DNA of 64,000 nucleotides from Acidipila sp. Lineage in GTDB: Bacteria > Acidobacteriota > Terriglobia > Acidiferrales > UBA7541. The translations under genes were made by a program, and so were the position numbers. The stretch lies in assembly GCA_010365215.1 (NCBI GenBank), contig JAAFGT010000002.1, positions 1 to 64,000 of the forward strand, given 5' to 3'. Positions 32,220 to 58,503 of the stretch are shown here, in pieces. The first letter of the stretch is position 1. Each line of letters starts with the position of its first letter. The notes under the pieces were generated by a model that was given only the letters and a program-made list of their open reading frames with translations, searched no databases and was not told where the DNA came from.

Positions 32220-33536
32220 ATGGCTGCCCCCCGCCAACAACTTTTTCGCCCCGAAGCACTTGAACGGTACTCCTCGCCAGACAATCTCGACCAGCTCATG
32301 CGGGTGGTAAGCGCTAAGGACTGGGTTCCCTTGGCGGTGATTGCCGGACTGTTCATCGCATTTTCGACCTGGTGTGTTTTTGGTTCCTTGCCCACGACCG
32401 TAACCGCCCGGGGTGTGCTGCTCCGGCCACGTAAATTGGTACAGGTTCAGGTCCTGGGTGGCGGGCGACTTGAGTCGCTCAGTGCGCGCGTGGGTGACTC
32501 AGTTCATACGGGGCAACTGATCGCCCGTGTGGATCAGTCCGAGCTCCACCGGAAAATCGAAGATGACCGGCAATTTCTGAACACGCTGCTGATGCAGGAG
32601 CGTCTGAAAACATCTACGCAGAATGTTCAAGTGAACCTGCAAACTCAGCAGGACCGGCTGGAGAGAAAGTCTCTCGAAGCGCAGCGGGTAAGTCTTCAAC
32701 ATGGCCTGGATGATGCGGTAGCCCTGGATCCCATGCTCAAGCGTCGCCTCGAGAGCCTGCGAAAGCTGAAGGAGTCAGGGCTGATTGCGGAAGCGTCGCA
32801 GGAATATATCCAGGGCGAACTCAGCTACCGCGACAATAATGCGAAGCTTTCGGAGTTTAAAGCCAAACTCGAGCAGATCGACAGCCAGTTGAAGCAGCTG
32901 GAGACGCGCTTCAGCGCACTCGGCAGGGAAAATCTTGAATCCTCCACAACGCGCCAAAACCAGATTAGCGATCTGCGCTCGCGGATTGCCATGAGCGAAC
33001 TACAGCTTTCCAAGAGCGGCGATATCGTCAGCGACTATAGCGGCCAGGTGTCAGAAATATTCGCGACGGCTGGACAAGTGCTCCCCGCCGGAGGGCGCCT
33101 GCTCTCCCTGGACGTTGAAGGCCGGGCAACGCCGCCGATCAGCCTTACGTATTTCCCCATCAAAGACGGGAAAAAAATTCAACCGGGTATGGATGTGCAA
33201 GTGACTCCCGACACAGTTCAGCGCCAGCGATTCGGCGGCATCGTAGGCAAAGTCATTTCTGTCACGACACTGCCGGTAACGCGCGAGGGCGCGAACAACA
33301 CCATCGGAAATGCCGACCTGGTACAGGGCATCATGGGTGAAGGCGCGTTTATTGAAGTCACCGCGCAGCTCGAGCAGGATGGGTCGACCTACAGCGGCTA
33401 TCGCTGGTCTTCTTCAAGAGGGCCGCAACTCAAGATCACTTCCGGGCTTACAACGGTTTCCCGCGTCACCGTCGAACGCCGTGCGCCTATCACTTATGTT
33501 TTCCCGATCTTGAGAGAGGCCATCGGTGCCTACTGA
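32220..33536 (+). CDS. NHLP bacteriocin system secretion protein (HlyD-family membrane fusion protein)
   Basis: About 438 residues: a short cytosolic N-terminus (LFRPEALERYSSPDNLDQLM), one transmembrane helix (VPLAVIAGLFIAFSTWCVFG), a lipoyl-like half (VLGGRLESLSARVGDSVHTGQLIARV with intervening Gly), a long coiled coil (about 120-270) and a beta-barrel part. This is the periplasmic adaptor of the NHLM export system that links the ABC transporter to the outer membrane. The start is taken at the ATG 32220 (TTG at 32208 is possible). It overlaps the next gene by 11 bases if that starts at GTG 33526. Confidence 0.9.
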   Translation: MAAPRQQLFRPEALERYSSPDNLDQLMRVVSAKDWVPLAVIAGLFIAFSTWCVFGSLPTTVTARGVLLRPRKLVQVQVLGGGRLESLSARVGDSVHTGQLIARVDQSELHRKIEDDRQFLNTLLMQERLKTSTQNVQVNLQTQQDRLERKSLEAQRVSLQHGLDDAVALDPMLKRRLESLRKLKESGLIAEASQEYIQGELSYRDNNAKLSEFKAKLEQIDSQLKQLETRFSALGRENLESSTTRQNQISDLRSRIAMSELQLSKSGDIVSDYSGQVSEIFATAGQVLPAGGRLLSLDVEGRATPPISLTYFPIKDGKKIQPGMDVQVTPDTVQRQRFGGIVGKVISVTTLPVTREGANNTIGNADLVQGIMGEGAFIEVTAQLEQDGSTYSGYRWSSSRGPQLKITSGLTTVSRVTVERRAPITYVFPILREAIGAY

Positions 33537-35736: not shown

Positions 35737-35768
35737 TGTGCGCGCAGGCAAGTACAGGCTAAAAGCCT

Positions 35769-43308: not shown

Positions 43309-45410
43309 TGGAGTGATCCTGCCGATGGCACGTAGTCGTCGAGATTTACGACGGCTTCGCATTGCGCGAGGCTTTCGGCGCGGCGGGAAATCAGCACTAG
43401 AGTAATGCCGCGGCGTCTGATCGCACTACGAATGACCATTTCGAGCTGCCAGTCGACACCGTCAAGCGCTTCATCGATCACCAGGACACTGGGTGACCGG
43501 GCGAGGGCGCGCGCGATTTCCAGGCGTCGCTGCTGTCCTCCGCTGAGTTCAAGCCCGGCTTGATCCAAGTACAGGTCTAATCCGCCGCGAGCGTCCAATT
43601 CGACGTCAAGACCAACTTCCGCGAGCACTTCCAACAACTGGGCGTCCGCTAAGCCAAGTCCCAGGAGAAGATTTTCGCGCACTGTAGCCGCGATAATCGG
43701 CCCTCGCCCTGCTACCAGCAGAGCTCCGGCTTGCGCGGGCGCTGAGCAGCTTGTGCCGTCAAACAGAATGTCTCCCTCGGTGGGTTCCAGGAATCCGCAA
43801 ATAAGCTGCGACAGCGCCGATTTTCCGGATAACGATTGCCCGGTTACGCCTATTTGCCCGCCGGCTGGAACGTCCAAGCTAAACTTGGAAAACACGAACG
43901 GCTGGTCTGGGGACGGCCGCCACGCCAGGTGATCGACCGAAACCCGTACACCCTTCCGGACGATGCTGGAAGTCTCACTGTGCAATGCAGGTTGCGCGTC
44001 CTCGAGATCGGCAAGCTGGTGTATGGCTCCGCGAAAGTCTCGAAGCCCATCAAGCCTCGCTAAACGTTCCAGTGGAATACCCACCACAAGGGACAAGACC
44101 AACAATTCACCTACCGAGCCTATAGAAAGTCGCGCTCGTTCGAGGGCAAGTATGCCGGCAATTAAGGTGGCACCCAACCGTGCGAACCTGACGACGAGGC
44201 GAACAGCGTCGAGACGGAGACGCGAGACTGTGGCTCGGATGGCGGCATTTGAGGCACGCGCGTGAAGTCCAGCAAGACGCGAAAAAAGTTCCGATTCGCC
44301 TCCAGACACCAGATGGGGCTCCATCCGTCCGAGCGTGTCGGGGTCGAAGCCAACGCACGCCAAAGGTCGTGCCGCTTGGCCAGCAACTACGCCACCGCGC
44401 CGCCGCCACACCGCACTGACCACCGCGACTTCGAGCGCAGCGATGCCAACGATAAGACTCCCGATCCAAGGATCGATCCAGAACGCATAGACACAAGGCG
44501 CAACCAGTCCCGAAAAGTCGAGTCCAGCGGCGAGAGCGTGTCCCTTCCGAACGATTTCACCGGGGGCGCTGAGCTTAGCGACGATTTGGGACGAAAGCCG
44601 ATTGCTGAAGAAGCGCTCCGGTAATCGACTGAGCCGATCCAGACCCTTGAGTGACGCTTCCGTCGCAAGGCCGAAGGCTGCTGCCACTGCGGCCCGATCC
44701 CGCATCCATCCGGCCCCGAAGGCCACGCCGGCAGCAAGGCAGAGCGCGACCAGATCCGGCCAGACCACAGATCCCCCGCTGACACGATCGATCAGCCGGC
44801 CGGCAAAAAATGCAAATGCCAAAATGGCTGCAACTACTACCCAGGAAAATGCTGCTGCCCCCACTAACTGCGGGACTACCGTATCAATTCTGTCCTTGAA
44901 CCATCGCCTCAAGGAGAACGAGCATCCCTGTCTGGTCAATATCGGACCCGGAGAAAGGGTCAAAACAAGGCCCGTGAAATCGTCGGCGAAATCTTCAATG
45001 GGAATCCGGGCTGGACCAACGGCTGGGTCGTTGACTTGCACTTCGTCTGCGGTGATGTCTTCGACCACCACAAAGTGGATGAAACGGCAGTAGGCGATCA
45101 TCGGAAATCCCACCGTCTGCATGTCCTCCATTTCTCTACGAAAAAGACGTGCGACGAATCCGTAGTGTTCTGCAAGCTGCATGAGCATCAGCGCACTCAC
45201 CCCCAACCGGGTCGACCCTGCCAAAAGCCTCAACTCTTCTAGGGTTACGTGCGTGCCTTGATATCCGAGCAAGATGGCGAGCGCTGCCAGCCCACATTCC
45301 GTGGTCTCGGCCTGCAGAACCAAGGGGGTCCGAACGGTACTTACGCACTTGCTAGCTCGGGCAAACCCCGACTCCATAGCATTAGCGGTGCGTTCAAACA
45401 TCGTTACCAT
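43305..45410 (-). CDS. Second NHLM-type C39-peptidase ABC exporter, with degenerate H-loop
   Basis: The 701-residue protein has a C39 peptidase with catalytic Cys (QAETTECGLAALAI) and His (RFIHFVVVED), membrane helices and an ATPase. Walker A (GQSLSGKSALS), signature (ELSGGQQRRLEIARAL) and Walker B (VIDEALDGVD) are kept. The H-loop His is Arg (LISRRAESLA) and the Q-loop Gln appears lost (LLVAGRGPI). With the next gene it should form a heterodimer with one working and one dead ATP site. Its ATG follows immediately after the stop of a 65-codon gene (TAG-ATG). It is probably the exporter for the three NHLP peptides downstream. Confidence 0.88.
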   Translation of the reverse strand: MVTMFERTANAMESGFARASKCVSTVRTPLVLQAETTECGLAALAILLGYQGTHVTLEELRLLAGSTRLGVSALMLMQLAEHYGFVARLFRREMEDMQTVGFPMIAYCRFIHFVVVEDITADEVQVNDPAVGPARIPIEDFADDFTGLVLTLSPGPILTRQGCSFSLRRWFKDRIDTVVPQLVGAAAFSWVVVAAILAFAFFAGRLIDRVSGGSVVWPDLVALCLAAGVAFGAGWMRDRAAVAAAFGLATEASLKGLDRLSRLPERFFSNRLSSQIVAKLSAPGEIVRKGHALAAGLDFSGLVAPCVYAFWIDPWIGSLIVGIAALEVAVVSAVWRRRGGVVAGQAARPLACVGFDPDTLGRMEPHLVSGGESELFSRLAGLHARASNAAIRATVSRLRLDAVRLVVRFARLGATLIAGILALERARLSIGSVGELLVLSLVVGIPLERLARLDGLRDFRGAIHQLADLEDAQPALHSETSSIVRKGVRVSVDHLAWRPSPDQPFVFSKFSLDVPAGGQIGVTGQSLSGKSALSQLICGFLEPTEGDILFDGTSCSAPAQAGALLVAGRGPIIAATVRENLLLGLGLADAQLLEVLAEVGLDVELDARGGLDLYLDQAGLELSGGQQRRLEIARALARSPSVLVIDEALDGVDWQLEMVIRSAIRRRGITLVLISRRAESLAQCEAVVNLDDYVPSAGSLQ

Positions 45411-45608: not shown

Positions 45609-46332
45609 GATGCAAGTTGCCGTGGGGCAGAATCCTGGATTGCGACCCCGGTGTTTGAGCCGCCACCAAGAATCTGGCCTCCTGACCGTACAAGCGCAAA
45701 TAAGAAGTCGCTGGCGTCAGTTCTCTCGCGTACGATCGTGGTCATTTATCGGCTCCCACTGCGAACCATCGTTTGATAACGCGTTGACCTTTTTTCAAGT
45801 AATGAGCTTTTGCGGGCTTGGGCATGTCAATAGCAGGATTTCAAGAGTTACCTTTCAATTGCAAAGCACATTGTGACATGTTGGATCCATGAATATTCCT
45901 GCTACTTCCGGGCGGCTCTAGTCCGGATAATTGTTGCATGCTTCTTGAATCTTGGTGAACTTAACACCCTTCTTCGCGAGCGATGCCAGGTGCTTCAGCT
46001 CTCAGACAGAACGTTCTCGGCGTGAATGAAGAACATAGAAGAGCTTCGCCCCTGTTGGCGTCGTGATCTCCCAGACATAGCGCCAGAACTCGCGCTGGAG
46101 GAGTCCACCGCGGCTTTTCTGGCCAGCTTCTGCAACTCTCGCTGGCAAAACACCCGGAACTTTGGTCCTAAACTATCGGCCTACTCGGCGCCCTACGAAC
46201 GTCCCATCGACTTCGTACGGCACGGCCCATACCCTGATCATACGATCCGAAAAAGCGCGTTCATCAGGGCCGGTAAAGGAGTTGGCACGCCCCCGGAGGT
46301 AGATGCGCTGTGGCTGGCGGGGAGCAGGAAAC
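45609..46332. other. Divergent intergenic region between NHLP locus and peptide importer
   Basis: About 720 bases between two divergent operons. A plus-strand open frame (46026-46385) is not convincing, since it overlaps the importer start in another phase. A TTGACA on the minus strand (45830-45825) may be a -35 for the NHLP operon, but its -10 is poor. A decayed minus-strand fragment lies at about 45925-46125. Confidence 0.4.
45925..46125 (-). pseudogene. Possible decayed gene fragment
   Basis: One minus-strand frame reads LQREFWRYVWEITTPTGAKL then FYVLHSRRERSV, a TGA, then ELKHLASLAKKGVKFTKIQE and a further stop. The residue make-up looks like real protein interrupted by a stop. I recognise no family. 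Confidence 0.35.
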
Positions 46333-47175
46333 ATGGAAAAGCTGCTTCAAGTGCGGGACCTGACCATCGACTACTGCTCGGCTGAGCTGCGCACGCATCG
46401 CGCGGTGGCCGGCGCCAGTTTCGATATCGCCCCCGGGGAAGTTGTGGGTTTAATGGGGGAATCAGGGTGTGGAAAGACCAGTATCGCGCTGGCTCTGCTC
46501 AATGTGTTGCCCAAGGATCGGACTCGCGTCACCGGTTCGATATTGTTTCGCGGGCAGGAACTGCTCACCATGCGGGAAACTTCGCTGCGAAAAATTCGCG
46601 GCGCTGCGCTTTCCATCATTTTTCAAGAGCCGGAAGCTGCGCTGAGCCCGGTGATGCGCGTGGGAAATCAGATTGCCGAAGTGATTCACGCGCACCGGAG
46701 ATGGAGCTGGAAACGCTGCCGGGACGAGGCCGCATCGGCGATCGCGGCGGTCGGGCTTCCTGCTACGGAGCGAATCTACCTCGCCTATCCGCACCAATTG
46801 AGCGGCGGGCAGCGGCAGCGCATCGTCCTCGCACAAGCGCTGGCGTGCGAGCCGGCGCTGGTGATCGCGGACGAACCCACGGCTTCGCTCGACGCGCAAA
46901 GCCAGGCCGATTTTCTGGTTCTGCTGCGCAATTTGAAGAGTGAGTCTAATGTTTCGGTGCTGCTCATCAGCCACTCGCCGGAAGTGCAAGCCAGCCTGGC
47001 TGATCGTCTGCTGGTGATGCAGTCGGGAAAGATTGCCGTAGACACAGCCTTCGCAAATCTTAATAGGCATCCCTCTCACGCCGGCACAAGAACCGTGCTG
47101 CATCCGAATCGTCGACCAGAAGTCGAGCGCGTTGCCAAGTCTGCCTTGGTCAGCCAGGGATCGTCCGTCCGATGA
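46333..47175 (+). CDS. Oligopeptide ABC transporter ATP-binding protein (DppD/OppD type)
   Basis: About 280 residues starting MEKLLQVRDLTIDYC. It has GLMGESGCGKTSIALALL for Walker A, SIIFQEPEAALSPVMRVG for the Q-loop in the peptide-importer form, QLSGGQRQRIVLAQAL for the signature and VIADEPTASLD for Walker B. It powers uptake of di/oligopeptides. AGGAAAC precedes the ATG at 46333; the frame's earlier ATG (46303) lacks a site. It is the first of five importer genes linked by four-base overlaps. Confidence 0.88.
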   Translation: MEKLLQVRDLTIDYCSAELRTHRAVAGASFDIAPGEVVGLMGESGCGKTSIALALLNVLPKDRTRVTGSILFRGQELLTMRETSLRKIRGAALSIIFQEPEAALSPVMRVGNQIAEVIHAHRRWSWKRCRDEAASAIAAVGLPATERIYLAYPHQLSGGQRQRIVLAQALACEPALVIADEPTASLDAQSQADFLVLLRNLKSESNVSVLLISHSPEVQASLADRLLVMQSGKIAVDTAFANLNRHPSHAGTRTVLHPNRRPEVERVAKSALVSQGSSVR

Positions 47176-48029
47176 GTATTGGCTCAAATCGAGCGGGTGG
47201 CACTTTGCCACCAACGTTGATGTGCGTCCGCAATTTGAGCAAGCAATATTCCCAGAGGCGTCCCCTGAATGGTGAAAAATTCATCATTCACGCTCTGAAA
47301 AATGTGAATTTGACGATTGCGCGCGGAGCTACCCTGGCCATCATTGGTGAGTCTGGCGCCGGGAAATCGACTCTAGCCCGCTGCCTGGCCCTGCTGGAAG
47401 AACCCACGCAGGGCGAAATCCATTTCGAGGGGAGCAACCTGCTGACTCTCGGACGGAAGAACCTGATTCCGATTCGCCGCAGGATTCAGCTTATCTTTCA
47501 AGATCCGGCTTCGGCACTGAATCCTCGCTTCACCGCAGAAGAGATCATCGCCGAGCCGATGTTGGTGCAAGGCCTTTCCACAAAGACTCAGCGGAGGCAA
47601 AGAGTTTCTGAATTATTCGACGAGGTCGGATTGCCCGCGCAGTGCGGGCAGAAGCGGCCCAGTGAGTTTAGCGGCGGGCAGCGCCAGCGCCTGGCCATCG
47701 CCAGAGCTCTGGCTCTCCGGCCAGCGCTGCTGATTCTTGATGAAGCGCTTTCACATCTCGATGTGGCCAATCAGCAACTAATTGTACAGCTTCTGGCGGA
47801 TCTTCAGTCGGCGCACTCGCTCACCTATCTGCACATCTCGCACGATGTGCGGATGGTTTCCAAGTTTGCAGATGAAATTGCCGTGATGCATGATGGAGCG
47901 ATCGTCGAGCTGCGGCCCGCCACGCAACTGCGCGCACACCCAGCTCACTTCCCTACCGGAGAACTCGTTAGGGCGACGCCCGCGCTGACAAGCGTCAGGC
48001 AGGGGCGCTTCCCCAGGCAGGCGCCATGA
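47172..48029 (+). CDS. Oligopeptide ABC transporter ATP-binding protein (DppF/OppF type)
   Basis: The 285-residue second ATPase: VRNLSKQYSQRRPL, AIIGESGAGKSTLARCLALLEEPT, LIFQDPASALNPRFTAEEII, EFSGGQRQRLAIARAL, LILDEALSHLD and HISHDVRMVSKFAD. It pairs with the ATPase upstream. It overlaps its neighbours by four bases on both sides (ATGA). Confidence 0.88.
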   Translation: MSIGSNRAGGTLPPTLMCVRNLSKQYSQRRPLNGEKFIIHALKNVNLTIARGATLAIIGESGAGKSTLARCLALLEEPTQGEIHFEGSNLLTLGRKNLIPIRRRIQLIFQDPASALNPRFTAEEIIAEPMLVQGLSTKTQRRQRVSELFDEVGLPAQCGQKRPSEFSGGQRQRLAIARALALRPALLILDEALSHLDVANQQLIVQLLADLQSAHSLTYLHISHDVRMVSKFADEIAVMHDGAIVELRPATQLRAHPAHFPTGELVRATPALTSVRQGRFPRQAP

Positions 48030-48997
48030 GATATCTCAGCCGAAGACTCCTCCACGCCGTCCTGCTGCTGGGTGCGGTATCTTTTTTTTCATTCGCGTTG
48101 CTGCAAATGGCGCCGGGGGATTTTTTTGACAGTATGCGGCTGAATCCTCAGATTTCCAGCCTCACGGTGAATGATTTCCGCGCGCAATACGGGCTCGACC
48201 GTCCACTGCCGGTGCGCTACGAGCGCTGGTTGGTTTCCGTTTTCAAGGGGCAATTCGGATTGTCGCTCACCTATGGCACTCCCGTAGCTCCACTGCTTTG
48301 GGTGCGCGCGCGCAATACGCTTCTTTTGACGGTCACTGCGACGCTGCTGGCGTGGCTGCTCGCTTTGCCACTGGGAATCTTCAGCGCCGCAAACAAAGGA
48401 ACGTGGTGCGACCGTCTGGGCGGAATGGCAACCTCCACATTGCTCACCGTGCCTGACCTGCTGCTCTTCCTCGGCCTGCTGTTGCTTGCCGTACGCACGG
48501 GATGGTTTCCAACCGGCGGAATGGTTTCGTCAGGGAGCTCTGATCTGAGCCGGTGGGCGCAGGCCAAAGATATTGCCGCCCACCTCTTCCTGCCGGCTCT
48601 GGGTCTGGCGCTGGTTATTCTTCCGCCCCTGGTGCGGCACATTCGCTCGGCAATGATCGAAGTGCTGGACTCGTCCTTTATCCGCAGCGCGCGCGCCCAC
48701 GGAATTCCCACACAGCGAGTGCTTTTTTGCTACGCGCTTCCGGTGGCGGCGAATCCGCTAATTTCGCTGCTGGGTTTTTCGATAGGCTCGATGCTCAGTG
48801 CTTCTGTGCTGGTGGAAGTAGTGCTCAGCTGGCCGGGTCTTGGGCCGCTGCTGGTGGAAGCGATATTGGCCCGCGACACTTACGTGATCGTCGGAATCGC
48901 CATGCTTGGATCGGTATTCCTTGTGGCGGGAAATCTCATCGCTGACTTGCTGTTGTTTGCGAACGATCCGCGAATCCGTGACGGAGTGAACGCGTGA
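48026..48997 (+). CDS. Oligopeptide ABC transporter permease (OppB/DppB type)
   Basis: A 323-residue permease with six predicted helices. It begins MRYLSRRLLHAVLLLGAVSF, has FRAQYGLDRPLPVRYERWL, and the EAA loop SSFIRSARAHGIPTQRVLFC facing the ATPases, then PLISLLGFSIGSMLSASVLVE. It is part of the overlapping importer operon. Confidence 0.88.
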   Translation: MRYLSRRLLHAVLLLGAVSFFSFALLQMAPGDFFDSMRLNPQISSLTVNDFRAQYGLDRPLPVRYERWLVSVFKGQFGLSLTYGTPVAPLLWVRARNTLLLTVTATLLAWLLALPLGIFSAANKGTWCDRLGGMATSTLLTVPDLLLFLGLLLLAVRTGWFPTGGMVSSGSSDLSRWAQAKDIAAHLFLPALGLALVILPPLVRHIRSAMIEVLDSSFIRSARAHGIPTQRVLFCYALPVAANPLISLLGFSIGSMLSASVLVEVVLSWPGLGPLLVEAILARDTYVIVGIAMLGSVFLVAGNLIADLLLFANDPRIRDGVNA

Positions 48998-50025
48998 CGC
49001 CGCGCCGCAAACTCTGTTGCGCGTTGCTCTTACTCGGCGGGTTTCACGTTGTAGTACTTTTCGCCGGGTTTTTTGCGCCTTACAATTTCGCCGCTCAGAA
49101 TCGAAATTACGTATTTGCCCCGCCCAGCCGATTACACTTCATCGCCGGCGACGGGGTATTTCATTTTCGCCCGTTTGTTTACGGATTGAAGACTGCGCCG
49201 CAAAACTCCGCCAGACCGGAAGAGGATCTTACCCGTGTCTACCCCGTGCGCTTCTTTGTCGACGGCGCCCTTTACAAGATTGCCGGGATCCTCCCTTCCC
49301 ATTCGCATCTTTACGGCGTGGCCATCCCGGGCAGAATCTTTCTAATGGGCACGGATGGCTACGGCCGGGACCAGTTCTCGCGTTTTCTCTACGGCGGCCA
49401 GCTTTCTCTGCTAGCCGGTTTGCTCGCTGCGGCTTTAGCGCTTTCGCTGGGAATTGTCGTGGGAGCTTTGGCGGGTTTTTATGGCGGCTGGCTGGACGAA
49501 GTGCTGATGCGCTGTTCTGAGCTTTTTCTCGCGCTGCCCTGGCTCTATCTCCTGTTCGCGGTACGCGCCGCACTTCCGCTGCATCTGGGGGAGTGGCAGG
49601 TATTTCTTCTGCTCGTCGCGGTAATCGGAATGATTGGCTGGGCGCGTCCGGCGCGGCTGGTCCGCGGCATAGTGCTCAGCGCCAAGAAACGCAACTTTGT
49701 GCTGGCGGCGCGCGGTTTTGGAGCGTCTGACAGATACCTGCTGATGCGTCACGTGCTTCCGCAGACGTATGGCGTAGTTCTTACTCAGATCGCTTTGTTG
49801 ATCCCTCAATACATCCTGGCGGAAGTCACGCTATCGTTTCTGGGCCTGGGTGTGGGCGAGCCGATGCCCAGCTGGGGTAGCCTGTTCGCCGCTTTACAGC
49901 AGTATTACGTCCTCTCGTCTTACTGGTGGATGTTTTTGCCGGCATTAATCCTGATCCCCTTGTTTCTCGCGTATCATGCGACCGCTGATGCCATGCAGGA
50001 ACGCTTGAAGTCCATGGCGCTGTAA
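48994..50025 (+). CDS. Oligopeptide ABC transporter permease (OppC/DppC type)
   Basis: A 343-residue second permease. One N-terminal helix is followed by an unusually long extracytoplasmic stretch (about residues 30-110, with HFIAGDGVFHFRPFVYGLK) before GTDGYGRDQFSRFLYGGQLS, the typical OppC motif. The EAA loop is NFVLAARGFGASDRYLLMRHV and the last helices end at YHATADAMQERL. The extended periplasmic loop is seen in some acidobacterial OppC proteins, by my recollection. Confidence 0.87.
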   Translation: MTPRRKLCCALLLLGGFHVVVLFAGFFAPYNFAAQNRNYVFAPPSRLHFIAGDGVFHFRPFVYGLKTAPQNSARPEEDLTRVYPVRFFVDGALYKIAGILPSHSHLYGVAIPGRIFLMGTDGYGRDQFSRFLYGGQLSLLAGLLAAALALSLGIVVGALAGFYGGWLDEVLMRCSELFLALPWLYLLFAVRAALPLHLGEWQVFLLLVAVIGMIGWARPARLVRGIVLSAKKRNFVLAARGFGASDRYLLMRHVLPQTYGVVLTQIALLIPQYILAEVTLSFLGLGVGEPMPSWGSLFAALQQYYVLSSYWWMFLPALILIPLFLAYHATADAMQERLKSMAL

Positions 50026-50057
50026 AACCGGCCGAATCTCTGCTAAAAAGTGGCGGT

Positions 50058-51821
50058 ATGAAGAGAGTCTTCTTGGGGTGTCCGCCTGCGCGAATTGCTG
50101 TGCTCATCCTTTGGGCCCAATTCCTTACTGTCCCTTGCGCAGTGGCGCGGCCGCGCGCGGCAGGCGAAGAGCGCATGGTCACGGCAAGTGCTCCTGGCCG
50201 CACCGGCGGAAAGCTGGTCATTGCGCTGCGCTCGGAACCCAAAACCCTGAATCCCATTCTCGCCGTGGATGCCTCGTCTCGCGACGTAATCCGCTGCCTT
50301 ACCGCCGACCTGATTCACATCAATCGCGCTTCGCAAAAGACCGAACCGGCACTGGCAAAATCGTGGAACGTTTCCGCTGACGGACGCAGCTACACCCTGC
50401 ATTTGCGGAAAGGCCTGCAATTTTCCGATGGCCGCCCGGTCGATGCGGATGACGTGGTATTCAGCTTCGCGCTTTATGTGGACGAAAAAGTACATTCGCC
50501 GCAGCGGGATCTCCTGGTGATAGGCGGCAAGCCGATTACCGCGCGCAAATTGGACGCCTACACGGTGCTCTTTGAACTGGCCAAGCCTTACGCCGCTGCC
50601 GAACGGCTGTTCGATAGCCTGGCCATCGTTCCGCGTCACCTGCTCGAAACCGCTTACCAACTGGGCAAACTTTCGGAAAGTTGGACGCTGAGCGCTCCGG
50701 CGAGTCAGTTTGCGGGTCTCGGACCTTTCCGGCTGAAAGAATACGTTCCGGGCACGCGCATCGTTCTCGAGAGAAATCCCTATTACTGGAAGGAAGACAG
50801 CAAGGGAAAGCGGCTGCCGTATCTCGATGAAGTTGTTTTTCTATTTGTAGCCACTGAGGACGCGCAGGTCATACGCTTTCAGGCCGGCGAGACGGACATC
50901 CTCAGCAGGTTCAGTGCGGAAAATTTCGATGTCCTGGAGAAACAGCGCGCCGCCAAAAAGTACACGCTGTATGACCTGGGGCCTGGACTCGAATACAATT
51001 TTATATTTTTCAATTTGAACGATCTGCCTGCTAAACAACCGCCAGACAGCCTGAAACAGAAGCAGGCGTGGTTTGAAGATATACGTTTTCGCCAAGCCGT
51101 CTCCGCGGCCATCGACCGCGATAGCATCGTGCGCCTTGCTTACAACGGCCGCGCAACCCCGCTCTGGGGACATGTAACTCCCGGGAATAAGCTGTGGCTC
51201 GACGCCAACCTTCCTCATCCCGAGCGCTCCATTCCCCGCGCGCGCCAGCTGCTGCAGTCTGCCGGATTCAAATGGAACAGCGACGGCGCGCTTTTGGACG
51301 CTCACGGCAGCAGCGTGGAATTTTCCGTGCTGACCAGTTCGTCAAACGCGCAACGCACAAAAATCGCCACTTTGCTGCAGGACGATCTGCGCGAACTGGG
51401 GATGAACGTCCACGTGGTGCCTCTTGAATTTCGCGCGATGGTGGATCGCCTGCTGAATACCCATGATTATGAGGCGGCGATCATGGGCCTGGCCAGCGGC
51501 GACGCGGATCCGAATCCGGAAATGAATGTGTGGCTGTCGAGCGGGGGAACGCATCTCTGGCACCCCAACCAGACCAAACCGGCGACCACCTGGGAAGCTG
51601 AAATCGACCGGCTGATGGAAGAACAGCTCACCACGCTCAATTATGCCAAGCGCAAACGCATGTTCGATCGCGTGCAGGAAATTGTCGCGGAAAATGTGCC
51701 CATCATCTGCGTGGTTAGCCCCAATATTCTGGTGGGCGCGGGAAATCGCCTGGGAAATGTTCGTCCGGTCATAATCGACCCGTACGCGCTGTGGAATATC
51801 GAAGAGCTATATATCCGTTGA
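50058..51821 (+). CDS. Family 5 extracellular solute-binding protein (peptide-binding, OppA/DppA type)
   Basis: The 587-residue protein has a signal peptide (RIAVLILWAQFLTVPCAVA). The SBP family 5 fold follows: LVIALRSEPKTLNPIL, LAKSWNVSADGRSYTLHLRK, GLQFSDGRPVDADDVVFSF, YVPGTRIVLERNPYYWK and FRQAVSAAIDRDSIVRLAYN. It captures peptides for the preceding permeases. The stop is directly followed by the ATG of a sigma factor gene (TGA-ATG), so importer and sigma factor are on one message. Confidence 0.9.
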   Translation: MKRVFLGCPPARIAVLILWAQFLTVPCAVARPRAAGEERMVTASAPGRTGGKLVIALRSEPKTLNPILAVDASSRDVIRCLTADLIHINRASQKTEPALAKSWNVSADGRSYTLHLRKGLQFSDGRPVDADDVVFSFALYVDEKVHSPQRDLLVIGGKPITARKLDAYTVLFELAKPYAAAERLFDSLAIVPRHLLETAYQLGKLSESWTLSAPASQFAGLGPFRLKEYVPGTRIVLERNPYYWKEDSKGKRLPYLDEVVFLFVATEDAQVIRFQAGETDILSRFSAENFDVLEKQRAAKKYTLYDLGPGLEYNFIFFNLNDLPAKQPPDSLKQKQAWFEDIRFRQAVSAAIDRDSIVRLAYNGRATPLWGHVTPGNKLWLDANLPHPERSIPRARQLLQSAGFKWNSDGALLDAHGSSVEFSVLTSSSNAQRTKIATLLQDDLRELGMNVHVVPLEFRAMVDRLLNTHDYEAAIMGLASGDADPNPEMNVWLSSGGTHLWHPNQTKPATTWEAEIDRLMEEQLTTLNYAKRKRMFDRVQEIVAENVPIICVVSPNILVGAGNRLGNVRPVIIDPYALWNIEELYIR

Positions 51822-52430
51822 ATGGCTGGGGCGAGTCGCATGGCTGTATGGAAAGAATTGGACGCGGACTCGAAGCTCCTGGCTTGGTCCAACACGCGGC
51901 TGGTGAAGGAATGCATCAACAGAAACGAAGAAGCCTGGTCCGCGCTAATCGATAAGTACAAGAGCCTGATCTTTTCCATTCCCATCAAATACGGTTTTTC
52001 CGTTGACGATGCCAGCGACATTTTCCAGTCCGTTTGCCTGGAGCTGCTCGCCGAGCTGCCGAATCTCCGCAAGGCGGAAGCTCTGCCGAAATGGATCATG
52101 CAAGTAACCGCGCACAAGTGTTTCCGCGGCAGGCGCCAGCAACAGCGCACGGAAAGCGTGGACCCGGGAGACACGCGCATCGATCGAGCGACGCCCGCCC
52201 GGGCGGAAGCGATTTTGCGCGAGGCCGAGGAGGAGCAGAATTTGCAACAGGCGTTGGCGGAACTTCCGCCGCGCTGCCGTCAACTGGTCCATCTCCTCTT
52301 TTACGAAGATCCGCCTCGCGAGTACCGGAAAGTAGCGGAGGAATTGGGAATCGCCGTCGGCTCTATCGGGTTTATCCGCCAGCGGTGTCTTGATAAACTT
52401 CGCCAGCGCCTCACCGAAGTGGGTTTCTGA
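51822..52430 (+). CDS. Sigma-70 family (ECF-like) RNA polymerase sigma factor
   Basis: The 202 residues have a region 2 (WSNTRLVKECINRNEEAWSA, LIDKYKSLIFSIPIKYGFSV, DDASDIFQSVCLELLAELPN, WIMQVTAHKC) and region 4 (LQQALAELPPRCRQLVHLLF, VAEELGIAVGSIGFIRQRCL, DKLRQRL). It joins the importer message upstream and overlaps the TPR-CHAT gene by one base. An ATG at 51840 is also possible. A small Cys-containing protein two genes on could be its control partner. Its target promoters are unknown. Confidence 0.88.
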   Translation: MAGASRMAVWKELDADSKLLAWSNTRLVKECINRNEEAWSALIDKYKSLIFSIPIKYGFSVDDASDIFQSVCLELLAELPNLRKAEALPKWIMQVTAHKCFRGRRQQQRTESVDPGDTRIDRATPARAEAILREAEEEQNLQQALAELPPRCRQLVHLLFYEDPPREYRKVAEELGIAVGSIGFIRQRCLDKLRQRLTEVGF

Positions 52431-55330
52431 TGCCGACTGCGCCAACGAAGCCCGATTCCGAAGTCGCGGCACCAGCCGGTGCACGACTGAATCTGCTCGA
52501 AAAAATATCCAATCTCACCAGCGACGCAGCGCGCCAGGCTTTTTTAGCGCGTCACCGTCGGCTGGCCACTCCCAAATTTGCCCGGCGGTTGGTCGATGCG
52601 GTGTTAGCCCAGGGCAGGGTGGATACGCAGCGCGCGCTTAGACTGGCACAAGCTGCCGTTTTTCTGTCGAAACACCTGCGCGACGATGAGGCGCTAGGTC
52701 TAAGTTTGCGGGCGCACGGCAACGCCTTAAACCTCGCGGGTGAGAACCAGCAGGCGCTGGAGCTGTATCAACAGGCCCTGGAGTTGTTCGCATCCCTGGA
52801 GAATAAAGAACAGACCGCGCGTACCCTGACCAACTCCATTCAGGCGCTGATCCTGATCGGCGAATATGACCGCGCCTTCGCCGCCGCCGAGCGCGCACGC
52901 GCCATTTTTAATACGCTTGGAGACGTCCGGCGCATCGCCCGCCTCGATAACAATGTCGGCAATATTTACCACCGGCAGGATCGTTTTGAGGAAGCCTTCG
53001 CCAATTACGAACGCGCCTACCAGCAGTTTTTGCCCTTGGGAGATTCCGAAGAGTTAGTGGCCGCGCTCTCGAACATGGCCATGTGCCTGATCACGCTGAA
53101 TGATTTCCCGCGGGCTCAGGCCTTCTACGAGCAGACCCGCGCGTTTTGCGATGAACACAAGCTCCCGCTTCTTCGCGCTCAAGCCGATTACAATATCGCT
53201 TACCTGTATTATCTGCGCGGGGAATACAGCCGCGCGATTGAAATGCTTCATGCGGCGCGGCGGCGCTGCGCGGAGACGGGCGACCATTATCACTTCGCTC
53301 TCTGCCATCTGGACCTCTCGGAAATTTACCTGGAATTGAACCTCAGTAAGGAAGCCCGCGAAACAGCTCATGAAGGCAGTCTACTCTTTCAGAAACTGGG
53401 CATGGGATATGAGGGGGCGAAGTGCATGGCTTACGAGGCCATGGCCTTCAGTCAAACCGGGAAAGGCCTCAGGTCCCTCGAGCTGTTCACCCAGGCGCGG
53501 GCACAATTCGTCCGGGAAAAAAATCTTGTCTGGCCCTGGCTGATCGATCTCTACCATGCCCTGGTGCTTTTCAACGAAGGACGACTCTTCGAGGCGCGCC
53601 GTCTGTGCGCCAGGGCTGCCGCTTTCTTCGACACTTCCTTTCTTCCGGGTAAAGCAGTCCTTTGCCATCTCCTGCTGGCGCGCCTGGCGCTACGAACTGG
53701 GGATTTAGATTTAGCGGAAAAGGAATGTGCCCGAGCGCTGGAGGCGGTCCCTGCAACTCATTCTCTGGTGCTGACTTACCAGGCCCAGTTCCTGCGGGGT
53801 GAAATTCAGAGCGCTTGCGGCGATCTTTCCGCCGCGTACCGCTCCTATCAAGAGGCGCGCGAAGCGCTGGAGGCTTTGCGCAGCAGTCTGCGCGGCGAAG
53901 AACTCAAAATCGCGTTCATGAAAAACCGCCTGGAAGTGTACGAAAATCTGGTGAGCATTTGCATGGGAGGCGGCGACCAGAAGTATTCCCTTGAAGAATC
54001 GTTTCGCTATATCGAGCTGGCCAAATCCCGAAGCCTGGCTGAACTCCTGATGCGCGAGGGACACGCCATTCCCGCGACGGATGCGGGACAAAGCGGATTG
54101 GTGCGGCGCATCCGCGAGATGCGAGAAGAGCTGAACTGGTATTACCGCCGCATCGAGCTCGAACAACTTCGCGCCACGTCGCCTTCTCCAGAACGCATCG
54201 GAAAGCTGCAAGAGCAGGCTCTGCAACATGAAAACGAGCTGCTGCGCGCACTGCGCGAGCTTCCCGCGCCGGAGCTGGAAGCAAGCGGCACGCCGGTCCC
54301 CAATGTGGCGTCGCTGGCCAGCGTGCGCGAGTGTCTGCCTGCCGATGCGGCGCTGATCGAATATTTCAGCGTTCACGACCAGTTTATCGCCGCGGTGGTG
54401 ACGCGTGATGGTATCGAGATCGTTCCGCTTACGCCGGTCTCGCGGGTGGCTAATCTTTTGCGCCTGCTCAACTTTCAGATGTCCAAATTCCGCTTAGGCG
54501 CCGAATATCTCCGGGCGTTTGAGAAGAATCTTCTGGCGGCGGCGCGCTCGCACCTGTTTGAGCTGTATCAGGAGCTGCTCGCCCCTCTGCGCGAACGCCT
54601 GCACGCCAAACATTTGATCATCGTTCCTCACGGAGTGTTGCATTACTTGCCGTTTCACGCGCTCTTCGATGGAGAGCGATACATTATTGACTCCTTCACA
54701 ATTTCCTACGCACCCAGCGCAGGCATTTATGCGTTTTGTCACCGGAAATCAACGGAGGCCTTTTCTTCCTCGCTGGTGCTGGGAGTGCCTGATTCGCGCG
54801 CCCCATTCATTGAGGATGAAGTGAAATCGGTGGCCGGGATTCTCTCCGGCGCCGAATTGGTGCTGGGCGCGGAAGAGAGCGAAACCGCTTTGAGGGAGAA
54901 AGGTCTGCGCAGCCGCGTTATTCATATCGCCACGCACGGCAATTTTCGACAGGACAATCCACTCTTTTCCGGAATCCGTTTGGGCAGCTCATACCTGAAT
55001 CTCTACGATCTTTACCAATTGAAGCTGGGCGCCGAACTGGTGACCTTGAGCGGATGCGCCACGGGCATGAACGTGGTGGCCGCGGGTGATGAGCTGCTGG
55101 GCCTGATCCGCGGGCTGCTTCATGCCGGAGCGCAAACGCTGCTGCTGACTCTTTGGGATGTTCACGACCGCAGCACGGCGGAATTTATGGCCAGCTTTTA
55201 CCGCCGCGCTCAGGCCGGCGGCGGCAGGCCTCTGGCGTTGCAAGGAGCCATGCAGGAACTGCGGGAACGGTATCCTCACCCCTATTTCTGGGCTCCTTTC
55301 TTGTTGATAGGAAAGGCCTTCCCGGCGTAA
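52430..55330 (+). CDS. TPR-CHAT caspase-like protease
   Basis: The 966-residue cytosolic protein has an N-terminal helical part, then tetratricopeptide repeats from about 65 to 480 (LRAHGNALNLAGENQQALELY, RLDNNVGNIYHRQDRFEEAF, AQADYNIAYLYYLRGEYSRA). A coiled segment follows near 555-610, then a C-terminal CHAT domain from about 680. The catalytic pair is present: H836 in HIATHGNF and C876 in LSGCATG, followed by GDELLGLIRGLLHAGAQTLL. It should be a cysteine protease of the caspase/gingipain clan whose TPRs recognise a partner. It is translationally linked to the sigma factor by a TGATG overlap. It is not tied to any CRISPR genes here. Confidence 0.9.
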   Translation: MPTAPTKPDSEVAAPAGARLNLLEKISNLTSDAARQAFLARHRRLATPKFARRLVDAVLAQGRVDTQRALRLAQAAVFLSKHLRDDEALGLSLRAHGNALNLAGENQQALELYQQALELFASLENKEQTARTLTNSIQALILIGEYDRAFAAAERARAIFNTLGDVRRIARLDNNVGNIYHRQDRFEEAFANYERAYQQFLPLGDSEELVAALSNMAMCLITLNDFPRAQAFYEQTRAFCDEHKLPLLRAQADYNIAYLYYLRGEYSRAIEMLHAARRRCAETGDHYHFALCHLDLSEIYLELNLSKEARETAHEGSLLFQKLGMGYEGAKCMAYEAMAFSQTGKGLRSLELFTQARAQFVREKNLVWPWLIDLYHALVLFNEGRLFEARRLCARAAAFFDTSFLPGKAVLCHLLLARLALRTGDLDLAEKECARALEAVPATHSLVLTYQAQFLRGEIQSACGDLSAAYRSYQEAREALEALRSSLRGEELKIAFMKNRLEVYENLVSICMGGGDQKYSLEESFRYIELAKSRSLAELLMREGHAIPATDAGQSGLVRRIREMREELNWYYRRIELEQLRATSPSPERIGKLQEQALQHENELLRALRELPAPELEASGTPVPNVASLASVRECLPADAALIEYFSVHDQFIAAVVTRDGIEIVPLTPVSRVANLLRLLNFQMSKFRLGAEYLRAFEKNLLAAARSHLFELYQELLAPLRERLHAKHLIIVPHGVLHYLPFHALFDGERYIIDSFTISYAPSAGIYAFCHRKSTEAFSSSLVLGVPDSRAPFIEDEVKSVAGILSGAELVLGAEESETALREKGLRSRVIHIATHGNFRQDNPLFSGIRLGSSYLNLYDLYQLKLGAELVTLSGCATGMNVVAAGDELLGLIRGLLHAGAQTLLLTLWDVHDRSTAEFMASFYRRAQAGGGRPLALQGAMQELRERYPHPYFWAPFLLIGKAFPA

Positions 55331-55500
55331 GCAGTTCCTGCCTTCTTTATTTTCGATCCCCTATATTTTATTCACCCTTGCCTGCCCTTATGAGTTGTAG
55401 AAGCGAGAAATGCTTACCTCACTCAGTTCGGACCAGAAGCCAGCAATCGGATCTTCGAGAAATCAATTGCCGGGGGAAATCGAGATGTCGGGGGGACAGA

Positions 55501-56220
55501 ATGCGACATTTTTCAATTGAAGATTGGGCAGACTTCGCTCGCAACGTAGCGGAAGCGAACAAAAAGGAAGCGATGCAGAGCCACCTCAACGACGGATGCA
55601 AGAAATGCGCACAAGCCTTTGGCCTGTGGCGTCGCGTCAGCGAAGTGGCCGGCCGGCAGGCCGCTCAGCAGGACGCGCATCGATTGCCTGGCAGCGCTCT
55701 GCGACAGGTTAAAGGGCTATTCGCCCTCCACACGGTCAGAAATCCACGTCCTGCAGGCCGGGCGATTGTCGAGTTGCTCTTCGACAGCTTTAGTAGTCCG
55801 CTGCTGGCTGGCGTTCGTTCAGCGGGAATCAGTCCACGACAGTTGCTCTTCGGTGCTGGAGACTACCGGCTGGATATGCGCTTTGAGCCCCAAGACGACT
55901 CGGAAAAGGTTTTGCTGGTCGGCCAGATACTAAACTCGCGCGATCCGGAAAAGGCGCCGGCAGCCGTTCCGGTGACATTGTTGAAAGGGCGCAAAGTTCT
56001 GGCCAAGTCGGCCACTAACAAGTTCGGTGAATTCCAGATGTCCTGTGATCTGGAACCGAGCCTTCAATTAACCGTCGAGTTGCCGGGAGAAGCGGCCATA
56101 CGCATCACGCTGGTGGAACCGACCGGCGCGGAACTGCAAAGCAGCTTTAATCCACAACAATCGTCGCCGGTTCGCAGAACGGTGCGAAGCTCGAAGAAAA
56201 GTACTAGGAAGAAGGTTTGA
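55501..56220 (+). CDS. Small protein with HxxxxCxxC zinc-finger-like head, possible anti-sigma or regulatory partner
   Basis: The 239-residue product begins MRHFSIEDWADFARNVA and carries HLNDGCKKC near residue 27-35, like the ZAS zinc site of anti-sigma factors. The remainder (about 95-225) is a beta-rich region resembling carboxypeptidase-regulatory or Ig-like domains (VPVTLLKGRKVLAKSATNKF, GEFQMSCDL), ending in a Ser/Arg/Lys-rich tail. There is no transmembrane helix. The ATG at 55501 follows GGGGGGACAGA; a longer frame begins inside the CHAT gene and is not used. Position after the sigma and CHAT genes suggests regulation of the sigma factor or being a CHAT substrate. Confidence 0.65.
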   Translation: MRHFSIEDWADFARNVAEANKKEAMQSHLNDGCKKCAQAFGLWRRVSEVAGRQAAQQDAHRLPGSALRQVKGLFALHTVRNPRPAGRAIVELLFDSFSSPLLAGVRSAGISPRQLLFGAGDYRLDMRFEPQDDSEKVLLVGQILNSRDPEKAPAAVPVTLLKGRKVLAKSATNKFGEFQMSCDLEPSLQLTVELPGEAAIRITLVEPTGAELQSSFNPQQSSPVRRTVRSSKKSTRKKV

Positions 56221-56344
56221 TGCCACGAGCCCTTAACCCGGCCATCTGTACCATTGCCGCCGATGGTTCGCCTTGCGAAACTCAAGAAGTCCCAAAGCAA
56301 GGCCGCGTGTTCCGAGTAGTCTCTATAAAAGGAGCAATTCGACC

Positions 56345-57691
56345 ATGAAGCGCACCTCTTTACTTCTGCTTCTTATCGCGACACTTTGCGGCCAAACAGC
56401 TTCGGCTCAGCTACTTACGGGCCTTCTCGGGGGTTCTACCACATCGGCTACGGCCGCATTGGGCGGGCCTCAGAGCGGGGTCATTGTGCGCACAAACCTG
56501 GGACCTTTGGGATTAAATGCGGTCTGCTTGCTCCAGGGGTGCACCGTAGTCGGCAGCTTGGACGGCGAATTGAACCGGGTATTCCTCGTTAAGCCAGCCG
56601 CAGGCCTGCTGCCCGAAATTCTCGCCGGTACGCTGCGACTGGTGACCGGGATCCTCAACGTTGAGGTAGATCACCCTCTTTTGATCCCCAGGAATTCTCC
56701 GAACGTCACGACGATTCCGCCGGGACTCTACGACCGGACACCAGTTACCTATTATGGCTCCACTGTCTGGAATGGATATGCCAACCAGCCGGCCGCGCAG
56801 ATCGTCGGCGTTTCGGAATCGAGAGCATTCAGAGTGAGCGGAGCTGGAATTGTTGCAGATATCGATACGGGCGTGGATCCAAATCATCCAGCACTGAAGG
56901 GCGTCTTGCTGCCGGGATATGACTTTACGAGGAATCAGGCAGGCGGATCGGAGATGAACGACGTCAGCCACTACACGGGCACCTCGTGCAGCTCCTGCCA
57001 GTCCGCATTCGTCACGCAATCGTCGGTCGCTCTCTTGGACCAGTCCTCCGTAGCATTGTTGGACGGCTCGCCTTTGGTGGCGTTCGGTCACGGCACGGAA
57101 GTCATGGGTGTGATTCACCTGGTCGCTCCCACCGCGCGCCTGATGCCGCTGAAAGCGTTTCGCCCTGATGGAACCGGCAATCTCTCCGACATCGTTCGCG
57201 CCATTTACTATGCCGTGCAAAACCGCGCCAACGTCATCAACATGAGTTTTGACTTGACCTCCAGCTCTTCGGAGCTTTCGAGCGCACTGAACTACGCCAC
57301 GGGACGGAATGTGTTGTGCGTGGCGGCCGCGGGAAATGCCGGACGCCGCGAAATCGTCTATCCCGCCGCCCTGCAGAGCAACGTTGTGGGCGTGGCCTCC
57401 ACCAGCGATTTCGATGCACGTTCGAGCTTCTCGAATTATGGCAATCAGATCGTCTGGGTGGCCGCACCGGGAGAAGAAATCATTACCACTTACCCGTTTG
57501 GAACCTATGCCGCAGCCTCGGGCACTTCGTTCAGCGCGCCATTCGTTTCCGGCACAGCCTCCCTGCTGCTGAATCTTCGCCCCGGAATAAATCAGTCCCA
57601 GCTGGCCTCAGCGCTGACCCATGAGAAGTATGTGGGTCCAGATATGGGATATGGGCGGCTGGATATTTACCGCACGCTGGCGGGCCGTTAA
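56345..57691 (+). CDS. Secreted S8 (subtilisin-family) serine peptidase
   Basis: The 448-residue protein has a signal peptide (KRTSLLLLLIATLCGQTASA-Q), a propeptide-like region, and a complete S8 triad: D174 in ADIDTGVDPNHP, H249 in FGHGTEVMG and S395 in SGTSFSAPFVSG. Between the Asp and His blocks lie a C-S-S-C cluster and a tandem QSSVALLDQSSVALLDG repeat just before the His block. The start at 56345 has GGAG upstream. It follows the sigma/CHAT/zinc-protein genes and would release peptides outside the cell that the importer could take up. Confidence 0.9.
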   Translation: MKRTSLLLLLIATLCGQTASAQLLTGLLGGSTTSATAALGGPQSGVIVRTNLGPLGLNAVCLLQGCTVVGSLDGELNRVFLVKPAAGLLPEILAGTLRLVTGILNVEVDHPLLIPRNSPNVTTIPPGLYDRTPVTYYGSTVWNGYANQPAAQIVGVSESRAFRVSGAGIVADIDTGVDPNHPALKGVLLPGYDFTRNQAGGSEMNDVSHYTGTSCSSCQSAFVTQSSVALLDQSSVALLDGSPLVAFGHGTEVMGVIHLVAPTARLMPLKAFRPDGTGNLSDIVRAIYYAVQNRANVINMSFDLTSSSSELSSALNYATGRNVLCVAAAGNAGRREIVYPAALQSNVVGVASTSDFDARSSFSNYGNQIVWVAAPGEEIITTYPFGTYAAASGTSFSAPFVSGTASLLLNLRPGINQSQLASALTHEKYVGPDMGYGRLDIYRTLAGR

Positions 57692-57738: not shown

Positions 57739-58503
57739 ATGAACAATCAGAACAATTCAGTACAAGGCCCTTCCGGCGGTGATCTCGACAGTTGGATCCT
57801 GCCGGGAGCGGCCGTTAAAGTTTCTGCCTCCACGAGGCAATTGTCGGAGTGGAATCCCTCCACGCTGCGCGTAAAAGAAATTGAGGAACAGCTTCTCAAC
57901 TTGCGCGGTTCTTTAATCTGCGCATTCAATCAGCTCCTGGATCTCAAGGACCTCAACACCGGTGTGCATAGCACCAGGCTGGCGGAGTGGGCCATTCACG
58001 TTGCCAGCGAACTGGGACTAGGGGAACGCGCCCTCGCAGACATTGAAGTAGCTGCCCTGCTGCACGACATCGGGAAAGTGGGCATCCCTGATGCGATTCT
58101 CAATAAACCCGCGAAATTAACCAGCGAAGAATACGACCTGATGAAAAAACATCCCGAGTATGGCTGGGCGGTATTGCACCAGATGCCCGGATTTGAGCAG
58201 GCCAGCCTGTTGATTCTTCATCATCACGAAAGCTTCGACGGCAAGGGGTATCCGGGAGGCCTCAAGGGTGAAGAAATTCCCATGGGCTCGCGCATCGTCT
58301 CGGTGATCGATGCATTCGATGCCATGGTGTCATCGCGCCCGTACCGCAGCGGACTGCCGGTGGAAGAAGCCATTCGCCGCCTGGTCGAATCCAGCGGCAC
58401 GCAATTCGATCCCGGAGTAGTGACCAAGTTTCTGCCGCTCGCGCGCGCCGAGATGTCCGCTGTATTTGCAGCCGCCGGTACGTCGGTAACTGCCGCTCTG
58501 TAA
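57739..58503 (+). CDS. HD-GYP domain protein (c-di-GMP phosphodiesterase-like)
   Basis: The 254-residue protein has an HD-GYP domain from about residue 55: LNTGVHSTRLAEWAIHVASE, ALLHDIGKVGIPDAILNKP, HPEYGWAVL, ILHHHESFDGKGYPGGLKGEE and IVSVIDAFDAMVSSRPYR. The HD dyad and GYP signature are intact, so hydrolysis of cyclic di-GMP is likely. There is no receiver or other sensor domain; the first 50 residues are undefined. It is the last gene of this block. Confidence 0.88.
   Translation: MNNQNNSVQGPSGGDLDSWILPGAAVKVSASTRQLSEWNPSTLRVKEIEEQLLNLRGSLICAFNQLLDLKDLNTGVHSTRLAEWAIHVASELGLGERALADIEVAALLHDIGKVGIPDAILNKPAKLTSEEYDLMKKHPEYGWAVLHQMPGFEQASLLILHHHESFDGKGYPGGLKGEEIPMGSRIVSVIDAFDAMVSSRPYRSGLPVEEAIRRLVESSGTQFDPGVVTKFLPLARAEMSAVFAAAGTSVTAAL

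Follow-up and report, generated by a model that had tools for sequence, protein, structure and literature searches.

An ECF sigma factor, a TPR-CHAT protease, a predicted anti-sigma factor, and a secreted S8 subtilase are encoded by a conserved gene set in Acidobacteriota, and we propose that they form a CRISPR-free, protease-gated transcription switch. The core of this proposal is a joint claim, namely that the CHAT protease relieves the anti-sigma factor and that an octapeptide carried by the subtilase is the ligand of its TPR region, by whatever route the peptide arrives. We give this joint claim an even chance of being correct. It is supported computationally by conservation of the gene set, the identity of the anti-sigma factor, the intact catalytic dyad of the protease, the occurrence of identical octapeptides across unlinked genes, and covariation of the octapeptide with the TPR region.

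In the proposed mechanism, the ZAS-like head of a 239-residue protein would hold the ECF sigma factor in check. Once activated, the cytosolic TPR-CHAT protease would cut this inhibitor, for which the exposed AGVR loop of the beta-sandwich is the most likely site, and degradation of the leftover fragment would then free the sigma factor. The activating ligand would be the octapeptide that the secreted subtilase carries in tandem, read by approximately residues 86-300 of the TPR region. The simplest route would resemble peptide quorum sensing, with the octapeptide excised outside the membrane and taken up again by the Dpp/SBP5 importer whose genes lie just upstream. We infer sigma binding, cleavage and its site, release and import of the peptide, and activation of the protease by the peptide. 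The predicted cleavage of the anti-sigma factor by the CHAT protease is well motivated by analogy with CRISPR type III-E, and the octapeptide is possibly an imported signal.

Organization of the locus

The window, a 64,000-nucleotide stretch of DNA, belongs to a 4.1-Mb genome of Acidobacteriota type whose nearest named relatives are Acidobacteria and Candidatus Acidiferrales MAGs. A run of co-directional genes on the + strand leads from the Dpp importer through the sigma factor, the TPR-CHAT protease, the 239-residue protein, and the subtilase to an HD-GYP gene:

46303-47175, + strand: ABC-transporter ATPase, DppD/DppF-like, first of two (PF00005, 8e-27; contiguous with permease genes)
47172-48029, + strand: ABC-transporter ATPase, DppD/DppF-like, second of two (PF00005, 1e-34; contiguous with permease genes)
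48026-48997, + strand: DppB-like peptide permease (BPD_transp_1, 1.6e-33)
48994-50025, + strand: DppC-like peptide permease (BPD_transp_1, 8.4e-24)
50058-51821, + strand: oligopeptide-binding protein, SBP family 5 (SBP5; PF00496, 6e-87)
51822-52430, + strand: ECF sigma factor, regions 2 and 4 (PF04542 and PF04545 over cut-off; TIGR02937, 78.4 bits against a cut-off of 42.9)
52430-55330, + strand: TPR-CHAT protease, 966 residues (CHAT, 1.3e-58; TPR_12, 2e-27)
52685-53329, + strand: TPR-CHAT residues 86-300, the part that varies with the octapeptide (covariation, partial r 0.50)
54935-54937 and 55055-55057, + strand: catalytic H836 and C876 of TPR-CHAT, respectively (dyad intact)
55501-56220, + strand: predicted anti-sigma factor, 239 residues, with ZAS-like head (residues 1-78), linker, and beta-sandwich (PDB profile matches, AF2 model)
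55786-55836, + strand: candidate CHAT cleavage loop with R106 (AGVR), residues 96-112, following D95 (FDS)
56345-57691, + strand: secreted S8 subtilase with signal peptide and prodomain (PF00082, 8e-33, 114 bits)
57017-57064, + strand: tandem octapeptide QSSVALLD, two copies, between the catalytic D and H regions of the S8 (repeat in sequence)
57739-58503, + strand: HD-GYP domain protein (HD_5, 1.7e-42)

The importer is complete (46303-51821) and lies directly upstream of the sigma/CHAT block; the SBP5 stop codon abuts the sigma ATG, and the TPR-CHAT gene overlaps the sigma gene by one base (52430). Gene spacing suggests that the whole run is one operon. DppC and SBP5 also adjoin the module in most near relatives, as does the HD-GYP gene, a conserved neighbour that usually follows the S8 gene in these genomes. 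The initial annotation had described the sigma, TPR-CHAT, zinc-site, and S8 genes as one block, and all four are indeed found where it placed them; the importer directly upstream and the octapeptide repeat of the S8 had escaped it.

Upstream of the importer are genes for a LanM-type lanthipeptide synthetase (DUF4135 and LANC_like), two C39-peptidase ABC exporters, and further ABC exporters. These genes, at window positions 27285-30533, 33526-38618, and 41341-45410, are likely a lanthipeptide cluster.

The sigma factor has regions 2 and 4 only and scores above the cut-off of its family model, as is characteristic of ECF sigma factors. Its neighbour is the sole CHAT gene of the host genome. The CHAT domain spans 54560-55315 and scores 199 bits with PF12770, for which the cut-off is 24, and no signal peptide is visible in the sequence of the protein. 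The His-Cys pair reported as intact in the initial annotation corresponds to H836 and C876, which are invariant in all 69 aligned CHAT domains from such modules.

A predicted anti-sigma factor with a candidate cleavage loop

The 239-residue protein alone has no Pfam match and also falls below NCBIfam cut-offs. A profile built from its family, however, matches four anti-sigma factors of known structure: RsiW (5wuq), 3hug, DdvA (8rlz), and ChrR (2q1z). Its H-x4-C-x2-C motif consists of H28, C33, and C36, with H3 as the candidate for a fourth conserved ligand, and each of these four residues is at least 90% conserved in the family. The spacing is nearly the same as in ChrR, whose ligands we take to be H6, H31, C35, and C38. 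The AF2 model (mean pLDDT 82) begins with four helices and ends in a beta-sandwich, the linker between them being poorly predicted. Thus, the protein combines the helical N-terminal domain, the H plus H-x3/4-C-x2-C ligand pattern, and the kinship to known anti-sigma factors that define ZAS proteins. By profile, we consider it an anti-sigma factor of the ZAS type, extended by a beta-sandwich, that would bind the neighbouring sigma factor; the anti-sigma character of the zinc-site head had been anticipated by the initial annotation.

The C-terminal part resembles carboxypeptidase-regulatory (CarboxypepD_reg-like) beta-sandwiches, with weak matches in 15 of 32 members. Foldseek searches with the model are uninformative for the head, as the best matches concern the beta-sandwich only and none has E <0.001. 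A transmembrane-like stretch is rare in the family (2 of 147 members). In one locus (L146, in G012:C122), three full-length copies of the family lie within 7 kb, with neither a sigma nor a CHAT gene in that stretch.

Two residues of the sandwich, D95 (FDS) and R106 (AGVR), are invariant in 32 homologues, and residues 101-110 have a mean pLDDT of only 59. The presence of a conserved residue in what is probably a mobile loop makes the AGVR loop a candidate site for the CHAT protease. It should be kept in mind that the site at which Craspases cleave Csx30 is not conserved (PMC11106740), so the invariant arginine need not be the cut site.

Conservation of the gene set

In a wide search of the class, the family of the 239-residue protein (ZNP) is matched in 95 of 399 genomes at E <= 1e-25. 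We gathered 151 distinct loci, a set that includes a few sandwich-only relatives without a ZAS head, and 100 of these lie away from contig ends. Among these 100, the sigma factor (SIG) is present in 91, CHAT in 88, S8 in 87, and all four genes in 78; because loci were collected by similarity to ZNP or CHAT, these counts describe linkage rather than genome frequency. An earlier locus set had all four genes in 51 of 70 cases, in many gene orders. The orders include CHAT-ZNP-S8-SIG, SIG-ZNP-CHAT, and arrangements with a divergent S8. The set is conserved across families of Acidobacteriota, and all four genes also occur together in Chloroflexota (L046) and Actinobacteria (L044). The sigma and zinc-protein partnership that the initial annotation proposed to look for in a neighbourhood survey is conserved. 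A chance arrangement of the four genes is rejected by shuffled gene orders and by cross-phylum conservation. At CHAT loci lacking ZNP, an S8 gene is nearby in only 5 of 31. Two loci carry two complete or near-complete modules in tandem (L071 and L163), and the modules of L163 have different octapeptides.

Other CHAT clades are also encoded beside an ECF-like sigma factor (L088-L094), in most cases together with a membrane-anchored zinc-type anti-sigma factor. The association of sigma factor, anti-sigma factor, and CHAT protease is thus broader than the present module, and a comparison with Csx29, Csx30, and CASP-sigma is reasonable.

A tandem octapeptide in the secreted subtilase

The S8 gene, described as complete in the initial annotation, meets that description. 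Besides its match to the family model, the catalytic triad aligns with D174, H249, and S395, of which H249 is invariant and the other two are at least 90% conserved, and the AF2 model (pLDDT 88.5) matches thermitase and prosubtilisins in Foldseek searches. The two QSSVALLD copies differ in six of eight codons, and every change is synonymous. The host genome has one S8 of this kind and no further exact back-translated match to QSSVALLD.

Similar repeats are common in S8 proteins of the module. Of 131 module S8 proteins, 82 have a tandem repeat with a period of 8 residues and nine one with a period of 6 (one of the nine, L218, looks spurious); the scan covered periods 5-12, and no other period appeared. 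The octapeptide is present in 2-17 copies per protein and varies by lineage (QHTAAMLD, QSTAAVLD, QSTVALLN, QSTGAILD, QSDAGFLD, and more). Copies in one protein are almost the same in peptide sequence despite divergence at synonymous sites. Codon differences between copies amount to 1663 synonymous and 237 non-synonymous changes across S8 proteins, and a signal-peptide-like start is found in 93 of 93 octapeptide S8s. A structural repeat is disfavoured because the two copies in the window, in a stretch of low confidence, are modelled with different secondary structure. A literature search for the motif QSTVAIL found none. In one branch (L125-L127, L129, L133-L136), the S8 proteins of the module instead repeat a hexapeptide, G-x-S-W-(A/S)-(I/V/A), in tandem where the prodomain meets the mature enzyme.

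The octapeptide also recurs in trans. Searches of eight genomes with back-translated QSTAAVLD yield up to six separate loci per genome, and a control pattern gives 0 matches. Every QSTAAVLD locus read is a secreted S8 gene, and the exact octapeptide was found nowhere outside S8 genes, either in the host genome or in the loci read from the eight genomes. Among 56 S8 proteins from 24 genomes, chosen by a regular expression that would miss peptides of another form, all 58 within-genome pairs share their octapeptide at 45-90% identity of the catalytic domain; in a few cases (L147, L152) both members of a pair lie side by side in a single locus. Conversely, S8 genes that are 80-89% identical in other genomes often carry a different octapeptide. 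For example, a QSSVAILD gene (L238, G007) has 89% identity to one from G546 that carries QSTAAVLD. Likewise, a QSSAAILD gene (L169, G440) is 82% identical to a QSTAAVLD gene, yet shares its peptide with a paralogue of only 52% identity. As read from these sequences, the octapeptide tracks the genome and not the gene. Gene conversion as the source of this identity is disfavoured, as copies and paralogues differ at synonymous sites. The exceptions to uniformity are G443, with both QSTAAVLD and QSTVAVLD, and one differing copy in G456. In genomes with more than one CHAT module (G012, G023, G059, G356), octapeptides differ from module to module; G471 has two CHATs and one octapeptide.

Many of these unlinked genes form satellite pairs (L200-L207, L221, L223-L226, L228, L230-L232), in which a beta-sandwich protein with the FDS..GVR signature mostly lies beside a secreted octapeptide S8, with no CHAT or sigma gene nearby, and the S8 carries an octapeptide of that genome. 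The satellite sandwich proteins read have a head in place of the ZAS head that appears REC-like from sequence, and they are possibly further targets of the CHAT protease.

These patterns bear on whether the octapeptide is an input at all. The CHAT protease might instead cut the anti-sigma factor on another cue, such as stress, a metabolite, or phage, with the subtilase as an output of the regulon and the octapeptide as an autoprocessing site or regulatory loop. Distant lineages have the core set but no octapeptides in the S8 proteins of many module members. In L071 and L075 the motif also lies at the prodomain/mature junction, the site of subtilase self-processing, and the hexapeptide variant occupies the same junction in another branch. 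Sharing of one octapeptide within a genome by subtilases as little as 45% identical, when close relatives elsewhere differ, is harder to reconcile with a switch lacking peptide input, as is the weak covariation of the S8 catalytic domain with the octapeptide (partial r about -0.01 to 0.20). We consider such a switch unlikely, although it is the foremost rival to a peptide ligand.

Covariation of the octapeptide with the TPR region

We compared peptide distances with those of TPR, CHAT, SIG, ZNP, and S8, in statistics that lean on distances among related loci and are not a phylogenetic model. With 24 loci, TPR alone kept an outstanding positive partial correlation (0.42; 0 of 255 control windows), and the signal was concentrated at residues ~86-300. 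With 53 loci, TPR residues 90-290 have a partial r of 0.51 given CHAT, SIG, ZNP, S8, and TPR 320-640, and 0 of 1115 controls are as high. The value is 0.42 when F-type peptides are left out (0 of 1121 controls as high) and falls to 0.32 when QHT-type peptides are left out as well (13 of 1109). In an initial comparison of 19 loci that excluded the F-type peptides, the TPR as a whole reached only 0.14. Since the region was picked by a scan, 32 loci that were not used in its choice serve as a guard, and these give a partial r of 0.50, with 1 of 1112 control windows as high. Covariation with the anti-sigma factor is weaker (0.29; 20 of 928 controls as high), and that with the CHAT domain is negative.

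Together, covariation with the TPR region and the identity of the peptide across unlinked subtilase genes point to an input or ligand role for the octapeptide. The suggestion in the initial annotation that the subtilase is an output or a second protease is, in this light, incomplete, the subtilase probably being more than an output.

The same trans relationship could arise if the octapeptides were substrate sites. TPR-CHAT would then cut the subtilase after the last residue of the repeat before export, thereby gating it, and the TPR region would serve as an exosite. Almost every copy has D, N, or E as its last residue, and the residue that follows within an array is mostly Q; caspases and legumains, which belong to the same clan, cleave on the C-terminal side of Asp or Asn. 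This arrangement would account for co-evolution in trans with TPR-CHAT. Nevertheless, all 93 octapeptide S8s have export signals and TPR-CHAT has none, and the covariation sits in the N-terminal TPRs rather than in the protease domain. We therefore regard cleavage of the subtilase as quite improbable.

If the octapeptide is a ligand, the importer genes suggest how it might reach the cytosol. Dpp/SBP5 genes accompany 20 of 35 octapeptide-bearing modules compared with 2 of 25 other loci (Fisher p 1e-4, uncorrected for phylogeny), and both their presence and this association suggest import. Many repeat-bearing loci have no importer inside the stretch read, which would suit an export monitor: subtilase that fails to leave the cytosol would display its octapeptides to TPR-CHAT, which would then release the sigma factor with no need for import. 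Such a monitor relies on the same recognition in trans, but octapeptide modules often have Dpp/SBP5 genes next to them, and we think this explanation very improbable indeed.

Relationship to known systems

In type III-E CRISPR systems, release of CASP-sigma through cleavage has been proposed for Csx29 (TPR-CHAT) and Csx30 (PMC10028731). The present locus resembles the type III-E Craspase in placing a TPR-CHAT protease beside an ECF sigma factor and a protein that, by profile, would inhibit it. The inhibitor here differs in being a ZAS and beta-sandwich protein, and the module further includes a secreted subtilase and, in many cases, a peptide importer. Membership in type III-E is rejected: the host genome has no match to a RAMP gene (PF03787, the Cas7-11/gRAMP effector), and the Csx29 family model NF041237 gives 43.8 bits, far below its cut-off of 300. 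This agrees with the initial annotation, which saw no CRISPR genes. The CalpL-CalpT-CalpS system of type III CRISPR is similar in that a ligand-activated cytosolic protease cuts an ECF-bound anti-sigma factor, as is proposed here, but it employs a SAVED-Lon protease driven by cyclic tetra-adenylate and has no subtilase (PMC11417357).

The RRNPPA systems of Firmicutes (Rap, NprR, PlcR) use a TPR receptor, a secreted precursor, and import by an oligopeptide permease (PMC9765709), and their propeptides sometimes contain tandem peptide copies (PMC11343458). The present locus encodes a TPR protein, a secreted carrier with a repeated peptide, and an adjacent Dpp importer, which might serve corresponding roles. 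Unlike the HTH regulators or phosphatases of RRNPPA systems, its TPR region is joined to a caspase-like protease domain, and the protein that carries the peptide is a subtilase in its own right. The output domain is CHAT, and no HTH domain scores above cut-off. The inhibitor has the zinc-ligand head of soluble ZAS anti-sigma factors such as ChrR and RsrA, and ChrR also has a C-terminal domain. It differs from both in its CarboxypepD_reg-like sandwich with the FDS..AGVR loop and in the dedicated CHAT protease encoded next door.

A role in anti-phage defence is unsupported, as PADLOC matches are only to general CHAT, TPR, and subtilase models. In the open literature searched, only the Craspase paper was found to combine CHAT, sigma, and anti-sigma proteins, and judged by that literature the system described here may have no published description.

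Implications

A broader reading is a form of signalling in Gram-negative soil bacteria that would be previously undescribed. Subtilases would carry, and perhaps excise, tandem octapeptides (hexapeptides elsewhere), which would pass through Dpp to a TPR-caspase that cuts the anti-sigma factor and activates a sigma regulon, and unlinked subtilases with REC-like/beta-sandwich partners would share the code. We hold this complete pathway only tentatively, as a reasonable possibility that falls short of an even chance.

If the proposal is true, caspase-like control of sigma factors would operate outside CRISPR as a widespread regulatory device. The system offers a defined, genome-specific peptide together with a predicted receptor region. 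The idea that TPR proteins in Gram-negative bacteria may read imported peptides is directly testable with a synthetic peptide of eight residues.
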